This document shows positions 50,815 to 53,800 of a stretch of 64,000 bases of DNA, in pieces. The notes beneath the pieces are model-generated. The model was given only the letters and a program-made list of their open reading frames with translations. It did not search any database and had not been told where the DNA came from. The position numbers and the translations under genes were made by a program. Source of the stretch: Roseovarius sp. THAF27 (GTDB lineage: Bacteria; Pseudomonadota; Alphaproteobacteria; Rhodobacterales; Rhodobacteraceae); contig NZ_CP045393.1 in NCBI RefSeq assembly GCF_009363655.1, positions 1,116,001 through 1,180,000 on the forward strand, written 5' to 3'. Each line of letters opens with the position of its first letter. Positions within the stretch are counted from its first letter, which is position 1.

Positions 50815-53800
50815 TCAGCCCAGTTCGGCCAGACGGTCGAGGGCGGCGCGCAGCTTGCTCTCTTCCTCTTCCCGGGCGGCGAGGTTCTCGCGGGCTTCCT
50901 CGACCACCTCGTCGGGGGCGCTTTCGACGAACTTGGGATTGCCCAGCCGGCCGCGCAGACCGCCCAGTTCCTTTTCCAGCTTGCTGAGGGTCTTTTCCAG
51001 CCGGGCCTTTTCCTCGGCCACGTCGATGACATCGGCCAGGGGCAGGCCGAAACTGGCGCCCTCGGCTGGAATGGTGATGCAGCCCTTGGGGAAGCTTTCG
51101 ACGACTTCCAGGGCCTCGATCCGGGCAAGGCGCTTGATCATCGTGGCGTTGTTGTCCCAGGCAAGGCGCGCGGATTTCGAGAACTCGGTGACCAGAAGCG
51201 GCGTGTAGAGGCCCACCGGCACATGGACCTGCGCGCGGGCCGAGCGGACGCTGTCGATCAGGGCGATGACCCAGTTCATCTCGGCGTCGGCCTCGGCGTC
51301 GATCAGCTCGTCGCCATAGCCGGGCCAGTCGGCGTGGATCAGCATCTCGTCGCGGCTGGCCAGCGTGCCCCAGAGCTCTTCGGTGATGAAGGGCATGATG
51401 GGGTGCAGCAGGATCAGGCACTGGTCGATGACCCAGGCCATTGTGTCCTGCGTTTCCTGCTTCACCTCGCCCGTGCCGTCCAGCAGGAGCGGCTTGGAGA
51501 ACTCGACATACCAGTCGCAGACCGTGCCCCAGACGAAGGCGTAAAGCGTGTTGGCGGCATCGTTGAAGCGGTATTGCGACAACGCGGAATCGACGAGCGC
51601 CTTGGTCTTGGCGGTTTCGCCGAGAATCCAACGGTTTACGGTCTGTTTCGGTTGCGGAATGGCGCCGGTGCTGCCAACCGCCTCGTTCATTTCGGCGAAA
51701 CGGGCGGCGTTCCAGAGCTTGGTGCCGAAATTCCTATATCCTGCAATGCGTTGCGGCGACAACTTCAGGTCGCGCCCCATGGCGGCCATGGCCGTCAGGG
51801 TGAAGCGGACGGCGTCGGCGCCGTACTCGTCGATCAGCTCCAGCGGGTCGAGCACGTTGCCGAGCGACTTGGACATCTTCTTGCCCTTCTCGTCGCGGAC
51901 GAGGGCGTGGACATAGACGTCCGAGAACGGCTTTTCGCCCACGACGGCGTATTGCATCATCATCATCCGGGCGACCCAGAAGAAGATGATGTCAAAGCCG
52001 GTGACCAACACGCTGGTGGGAAAGTATTTTTCCAGTTCGGGCGTCTTTTCGGGCCAGCCCAGCGTGCCGATGGGCCAGAGCCCCGAGGAAAACCAGGTGT
52101 CGAGCACGTCGGGGTCGCGCCAGACCGGGTAGACCAGATGCGTGGGATCCTGGCTGGCCGTGTAGTCGGCAAGGCTGGAGGCGAGCTTGTGCAGCGCATC
52201 CTCGCGGTCCTTCGCCTCGACCACGGTCATCGAGGCCAGCGGCGTGGGCAGGTCGGTCAGCTGCGCGGTGAAGGCCTGTGCGGTCGCCTCGAAATCGTGG
52301 CCGCATTCCATCAGCGGGGCGAAGTGGCTTTCGTTGAGAACCTCAAGCATTTCAACGAGATCCAGCGCGCCATCGCCTTCGCGGTCGCGGAAATCGGGTG
52401 CGCTGAGGTCAAAGCCGTACCAGACCGGAATCTGGTGCCCCCACCAGAGCTGGCGCGAGATGCACCAGGGCTCGATGTTTTCCAGCCAGTTGAAATATAC
52501 CTTGCGGTCCTGCTCTGGCATGATGGTGACGTCGCCGGATTTCACCGCCTCGATGGCGGGGCCGACGATCTTGTCGGTGGCGACGAACCACTGATCGGTC
52601 AGCATCGGCTCGATTACCACCTTCGAGCGATCGCCGAAGGGCTGCATGATTGGCTTCGATTCAACGAGCGGGAGGTAGGCCGGGGTTGACCCCGGCTCGG
52701 CGCCGTCCTCGGGGGCCGGGGTGAACCCCGGCCTACTCTTGTCCTCGTGTTGGACGGGGACCATGACCGCCAGACCCTCATCGGTGATCTGCTGGACGAC
52801 CTTTTCACGCGCCTCGAAGCGGTCGAGGCCGCGCAGGTCGTCGGGGACGAGGTTGATCGTGTCGGCCTCGGCCTCGGTAAGGCTGCGCTCGCCCTTGGCC
52901 ACGGCCATGGCGATCTCGGCCATCTTCGCATAGGGGGAGCCGTCGTCGCGCATCGCGCCCTTGGTGTCCATCAGGCGGTACATGGGGATGCCGCCGCGCT
53001 GCGCCACGCCGTAGTCGTTGAAGTCATGCGCGCCGGTGATCTTGACCGCGCCCGAGCCGAAATCGGGGTCCGGATATTCGTCCGTTATGATGGGAATGAG
53101 GCGACGATGCTCTTTCGGTCCGACTGGAATTTCGCAGAGTTTCCCCACGATTGGCGCGTAGCGTTCATCCGACGGGTGAACTGCGACCGCGCCGTCGCCC
53201 AGCATGGTCTCAGGCCGCGTGGTGGCGATGGAGATATAGTCGCGCGTCTCCTCCAACACGACATTTCCATCGTCGTCGCGCTCGACATAAGTGTAGGTCG
53301 CGCCGCCCGCCAGCGGATATTTGAAATGCCACATGTGGCCCGCAACCTCGGTATTCTCGACTTCCAGATCGGAGATGGCCGTCTCGAAATGCGGGTCCCA
53401 GTTGACCAGCCGCTTGCCGCGATAAATCAGGCCTTTTTCGTACATGTCCACGAAGACCTTGATGACGGCGTCGTGGAAATTGCCTTCCTCACCCTCGGGG
53501 GCCGAGGGCGCGCCGGACATGGTGAAGGCCTCGCGCGACCAGTCGCAGGAAGCGCCGAGGCGCTTCAGCTGGCCGATGATGGTGCCGCGCGACTTGATCT
53601 TTTGTTGCCAGACGCGTTTCTCGAACTCTTCGCGGCCCATCTCGACGCGCGTGGGCTCGCCGTTGGCGGCCATGTCGCGCTCGGTCACCATCTGCGTGGC
53701 AATGCCGGCGTGGTCGGTGCCGGGCTGCCACAGCGTGTCGAAGCCGCGCATCCGGTGCCAGCGGATCAGGATGTCCTGCAACGTGTTGTTGAAGGCGTGG

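Follow-up and report, generated by a model that had tools for sequence, protein, structure and literature searches.

The valine--tRNA ligase gene (valS) of Roseovarius sp. THAF27 contains a true in-frame pair of REPs inside an essential gene, which is a recurrent case of a known phenomenon and an unusually rich instance of it. The pair lies in the 64,000-nucleotide stretch of this genome that we analysed (the window). It consists of two inverted 22-base GTAG palindromes, which face outward with GTAG at both outer ends and cover 62 nt (52675-52736). An earlier sequence-only reading of the window had described a GTAG-headed inverted pair with an 18-nt spacer, 62 bp in all, translated in frame as about residues 410-430 of ValS. 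Its coordinates and anatomy were exact, and the translation was confirmed in the open frame of valS, in which the dimer runs from the second base of codon 410 to the third base of codon 430 and encodes 21 residues. In the explanation that we favour and hold to be quite probable, two inverted GTAG REPs would have entered a length-variable ValS loop through RAYT-driven mobilisation, would have been tolerated there as translated sequence, and would later have taken part in allele exchange.

Table 1. Features of the valS region and of the RAYT gene (window positions, except where a contig of the window genome, G000, is given).
Feature	Position	Strand	Basis
valS, valine--tRNA ligase, 1049 aa	50815..53964	-	open frame, Pfam, NCBIfam NF004349 over cut-off
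Variable ValS loop, residues 401-436 (MVPVQHEDK...LPLVES), between invariant EGLAV and an 11-residue segment (letters not shown)	52657..52764	-	loop alignment
REP arm 1: GTAG, 7-bp stem GCCGGGG/CCCCGGC, loop TTGA	52675..52696	+	
Spacer, 18 nt, coding strand PEDGAE, resembling the EDSAEP stretch of ValS loops L045 and L151	52697..52714	.	
REP arm 2: GTAG, 7-bp stem as in arm 1, loop TTCA	52715..52736	-	
RAYT gene with in-frame 78-bp GTAG REP dimer	G000:C1:3115507-3116076 (L004:1289-1861)	-	NF047646, hairpin scan

The REP pair, its family and its transposase

The valS product scored 1173.4 bits against the NCBIfam profile for valine--tRNA ligase (NF004349, cut-off 704). With up to three mismatches, the 22-base arm was expected 0.01 times in the 64-kb window and was found 3 times, one of these matches being arm 2 read on the opposite strand. 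RNA of the coding strand (82 nt) folded at -53.5 kcal/mol (z -5.27), and 0 of 200 shuffles were as low. An Rfam identity for the region was rejected, as the only matches were sub-threshold microRNAs (best 31.1 bits against a gathering score of 80).

The loop was then compared among near relatives. In the window it is 36 residues long. Of the four relatives nearest on the tree, three (L031, L032 and L149) have a loop of 15 residues, which is 63 nt shorter and lacks the dimer. The fourth, R. atlanticus R12B (L030, also read as L110), whose ValS is 96% identical to that of the window in the best segment, carries the dimer. Together with the window valS (L029) these four form a starred clade of 5 with inner branch support of 80-92. 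The alignment of related ValS therefore gave near relatives with a shorter loop lacking the unit, rather than the same residues in unrelated codons. The sequence-only reading had also proposed that trimming or target duplication of one base kept the frame. The net difference from the short loops is indeed 63 nt, but the flanks of the dimer and the loops of the short alleles have different letters, which makes the junction itself, and with it either one-base mechanism, unreadable.

The window units fit the GTAG REP family, which has a GTAG head followed by a short palindrome and occurs in tens of genome copies, mostly between genes. With up to three mismatches, the arm matched G000 14+14 times, against 4+3 times for a reversed-pattern control (valS matches included). 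A broader GTAG pattern gave 29+30 = 59 matches against 0+1 = 1 for its control, and the CGTC family gave 22 against 0. The search for further arm copies thus revealed a genome-wide family, and the possibility that the arm had no other copy in the genome fell away. The GTAG and CGTC patterns marked 103 repeat sites, which were merged into 71 clusters; 67 remained after valS and three weak 3-mismatch clusters were dropped. By codon score, two of the 67 non-valS clusters were judged to lie inside a coding frame, namely a single unit in a carboxyltransferase gene and a dimer in the RAYT gene. For the other 65, codon score and inspection gave no gene-internal classification, a third candidate internal cluster (2588049, 118-aa frame) having been set aside by eye. 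One intergenic cluster (G000:C1:3730266-3730705) holds GTAG and CGTC REPs in tandem, with 8 pattern sites within 440 bp.

The acyl-CoA carboxyltransferase gene (L003:716-2335 (-), G000:C1 about 2450889) contains a perfect single GTAG REP in frame. The corresponding loop, AGVNPGLR, was seen 7 times among the 116 loops read. In several homologues from Ruegeria and Roseovarius the loop is AGLKPGLR or GGVNPALR. Judged from protein letters only, GTAG REPs could encode these loops, and native ones, for example GLAPTLR, resemble them.

The search for a RAYT gene proposed in the sequence-only reading was positive. The G000 RAYT scored 167.6 bits with the REP_Tyr_transpos profile NF047646 (cut-off 80, E 1.6e-49), and a RAYT protein query had matches at three places in G000 and in 42 of the 79 genus genomes. 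The PF01797 profile had no match in G000 because the RAYT there scores 14.7 bits against a cut-off of 23. An initial reading of "no RAYT", based on PF01797 (no match in G000, 14 of 79 genus genomes), was dropped in view of the protein query. In practical terms, PF01797 missed RAYTs here that NF047646 or a protein query detected. The REP dimer of the G000 RAYT sits in the loop after the HLH motif, between the HLH and NP motifs, and another GTAG REP lies just downstream of the gene. One arm inside this RAYT equals valS arm 2 letter for letter (22/22): GTAGGCCGGGGTTCACCCCGGC. In G097, too, the valS arm and the RAYT-internal arm are identical to each other, and both have another stem variant: GTAGGCCGGGCTTCAGCCCGGC. 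A REP unit in the loop between the HuH and Y motifs, which is a feature of tnpAREP subclass 2.4, was present in 17 of 36 usable RAYT cores (39 loci were listed, of which two had no core and one a wrong core).

Recurrence of REPs in the ValS loop

We read 151 valS loci (30 + 80 named + 41), of which 143 were distinct. They were chosen by closeness to the window, as genus members and the best 80 of 593. The ValS segment was found in 71 of 79 genus genomes, the other 8 not being counted by that route. A class-wide search at profile level matched ValS in 350 of 385 genomes, which gives presence only, the loops being unread. Nine consensus units derived from G000 copies outside valS were run along the valS genes, with up to 5 mismatches allowed. 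In this loop, which makes up 3% of the sequence scanned, 23 of the 143 distinct genes had a REP-like unit. Outside the loop the same scan gave 1 match in 385 kb of valS, and codon-shuffled loops matched in 1 of 2860 cases. A separate hairpin scan added L085 as the 24th REP-bearing ValS, and 119 of the 143 genes were classed as having no REP in the loop.

With L085 included, the loops carry GTAG (7), CGTC (10) and GTCC (7) types, and the L156 loop holds three CGTC-type arms. By eye, the REP-bearing loops comprise about 14-16 unrelated alleles. Of 34 loop units in 23 genes, 33 use the phase that predominates for their type and orientation, although many units are related and this is no independent test. 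The encoded peptides are hydrophilic, for example SRPGFTP, SSSGLTRG, DPRVKPEDD and EVPGQARD. On trees built without the loop, there were 20 changes between REP and none for the whole gene, 19 for the N part and 19 for the C part, and at least 17 were forced by starred branches of the whole tree. Label shuffles gave a mean of 22.4 changes, and REP presence is therefore only weakly clustered on the tree. The single event implied by the earlier reading does not hold for the loop as such, since other REP families occupy it in other Rhodobacterales. The ValS loop seems to be a site where mobile DNA lands repeatedly.

The position of the loop in the protein was examined against T. thermophilus ValRS (1gax). 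Query residues 373-398 aligned with chain residues 305-330 (weakly, i-E 5.2) and 449-523 with 349-423. The loop was placed between chain residues 330 and 349 because these flanking segments align there. An AlphaFold model of ValS was too poor for a fold search (mean pLDDT 63.5, pTM 0.46); in this poor model, residues 406-427 had low pLDDT. The surface loop of the earlier reading is thus likely from the 1gax alignment, despite the poor structure model, and the hairpin-encoded loop is likely to lie at the protein surface. Across the 143 distinct genes the loop ranges from 4 to 58 residues, and this tolerance was counted in favour of the best explanation.

Units in valS also occur in genomes in which RAYT was not matched. 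G062 and G079 carry CGTC units in valS and neither genome has a RAYT match, so RAYT cannot account for every case. In PMC3733652, CGTC REPs are reported to exist without a dedicated transposase. Among the 25 CGTC clusters that G062 has besides valS, no convincing gene-internal unit was found, three weak scores being judged by eye. The valS of G022 (L049) has a GTAG unit, and this genome has no RAYT match and only 4 GTAG pattern matches, 2 of which are the valS copy itself; the unit may be a fossil or an imported allele. The loop of L164 (valS of G082) is like those of the REP-bearing L041 and L049 with a broken palindrome, and looks like a decaying unit. The ValS of P0023 has a 73-residue loop with apparently several CGTC-type peptides in tandem.

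Arrival of the pair and exchange of loop alleles

In the proposed mechanism, RAYT would mobilise single-stranded REP DNA into the valS loop, either in one step or as two arms on both sides of native residues. Harmful or frame-breaking copies would be lost, and open, mostly hydrophilic frames would be kept in the tolerant loop. Loop alleles would then be exchanged between species by recombination.

It is possible, though we hold it only tentatively, that the window strain itself gained its REP-bearing loop allele from another Roseovarius through recombination over a short tract. The loop of P0043, whose ValS is 80% identical overall, has 28 consecutive residues in common with that of the window. 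Between L029 and L030 the loop differs at 2 of 108 sites, and the dimer is identical at 62/62, while 161 of 1800 flanking sites differ (P 0.003 for the dimer). Neutral decay since a common ancestor accounts for this dimer identity less well than exchange or constraint does. However, L029 and L030 belong to the clade of 5 described above, so that common descent with loss in three members is possible, and recombination would merely shift the insertion event to another genome.

Elsewhere, L045 and L151 share about 97% of their DNA over the N part and the 240 nt after the loop, and then 80%; within the loop they are identical at 75 of 81 positions. This was the only clear recombinant among the pairs examined. 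From these comparisons we conclude that loop alleles move between lineages, and the 20 tree changes therefore do not equal 20 insertions. N/C mosaicism as a general cause of loop swapping was rejected, because over 9980 pairs the N part is simply more conserved than the C part. The ValS of P0055 has the QHEDK flank seen in the window and P0043; its two arms share another stem variant (SRPGFSP...PGSSPAY), which looks like either in-place replacement or compensatory change.

REPINs, described by Bertels and Rainey in 2011, reportedly consist of two inverted REPs with a spacer, together with their RAYT. The window unit has this form, and its genome contains the cognate RAYT. That arm, spacer and arm moved in whole as one REPIN, in a single RAYT-driven transposition, nevertheless seems rather unlikely. 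The outward inverted pair around an 18-nt spacer, the same stem variant in both arms and the cognate RAYT favour it, as does the same layout and phase in G097, where both arms have a different stem variant. Against it, the exact 19-base spacer pattern (spacer with edge) was found in valS loci only, among 334 loci. This 19-nt stretch matches the ValS loops of L045 at 18/19 and L151 at 17/19, and these loops carry a different REP to the left of the stretch and none to the right. The best other ValS loops match at 15/19. The argument from spacer resemblance is moderate, because a 17/19 match also occurs by chance in 589 kb of non-valS G000 strands. Two REPs flanking native ValS loop residues are a likely arrangement, because the spacer resembles the L045 and L151 loops and is found only in valS loci. 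Of the sequence-only reading, the in-frame, paired inverted GTAG form, its membership in a genome-wide family and the presence of a RAYT were upheld, while arrival as a ready-made REPIN and the one-base mechanism were not.

Function, meaning and comparison with known systems

A REP-born peptide in ValS without selected function is most likely. It is improbable that the ValS loop is under diversifying selection, with REPs as raw material and the loop replaced by REP insertion and allele exchange; if this were true, the loop would perhaps be a ValS face met by a variable inhibitor, a phage or toxin factor or a partner protein. We consider it very unlikely that the hairpin is kept for a function in valS mRNA or DNA, such as translation pausing, mRNA stability or a gyrase site. 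The predicted fold is very stable and the stems stay paired in both arms (GGGG/CCCC in G000, GGGC/GCCC in G097), but each stem variant is that of the REPs borne by the RAYT of the same genome, which explains the pairing without selection. In addition, 119 of 143 ValS have no loop REP, the units present differ in family and position, and Rfam gave no family at or above its gathering score. Palindromy by chance, in a G+C-rich gene where short hairpins are common and where stems of 6-7 bp occur in some loops that have no REP unit, is practically negligible as an explanation, being contradicted by the arm expectation, the genome-wide control counts and the short-loop relatives.

Under the preferred reading of REP insertion, tolerance and later allele exchange, scattered intragenic REPs become a countable natural experiment, with one essential enzyme, one loop, three REP types and many species. 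Rates can then be measured for the insertion, decay, exchange and frame use of REP-born peptides, and the question arises of why this loop and not others is used. In free-living bacteria too, and not in Rickettsia alone, an essential tRNA synthetase can gain new residues from mobile hairpins.

Compared with the REPINs of Bertels and Rainey (2011), the window unit is alike in its inverted pair, spacer and cognate RAYT, and differs in that no other arm-spacer-arm copy was found among 334 loci. The sequence-only reading had likened the unit to Rickettsia palindromic elements. RPE-4 and RPE-6 are equated with CGTC repeats in PMC3733652. The comparison stands in so far as palindromes are read as protein in essential genes in both, and the CGTC type occurs in the ValS of several relatives; it fails in sequence type, the window units being GTAG and not CGTC as in RPE-4 and RPE-6.

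In-frame REPs inside tnpAREP (RAYT) genes are a published feature of subclass 2.4, where, according to PMC6006769, they lie in a variable region off the catalytic site. The G000 RAYT is alike, whereas valS is a host gene and not a transposase.

In the literature covered, mostly open-access texts, there was no report of a ValS REP hotspot or of REPs in Rhodobacterales valS. The closest precedent is Di Nocera et al. 2013 (PMC3733652). It describes intragenic REPs whose host genes include tRNA synthetases of X. oryzae, E. litoralis and S. alaskensis, and agrees with our case in having both the GTAG and CGTC superfamilies in frame in real genes, often as dimers coding 20-30 residues. Different REPs at about the same site are mentioned there only for recB of two Xanthomonas species. 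The units described in it otherwise lie in other genes of one functional category at different sites, whereas here one ValS loop carries three REP types across the Rhodobacterales.
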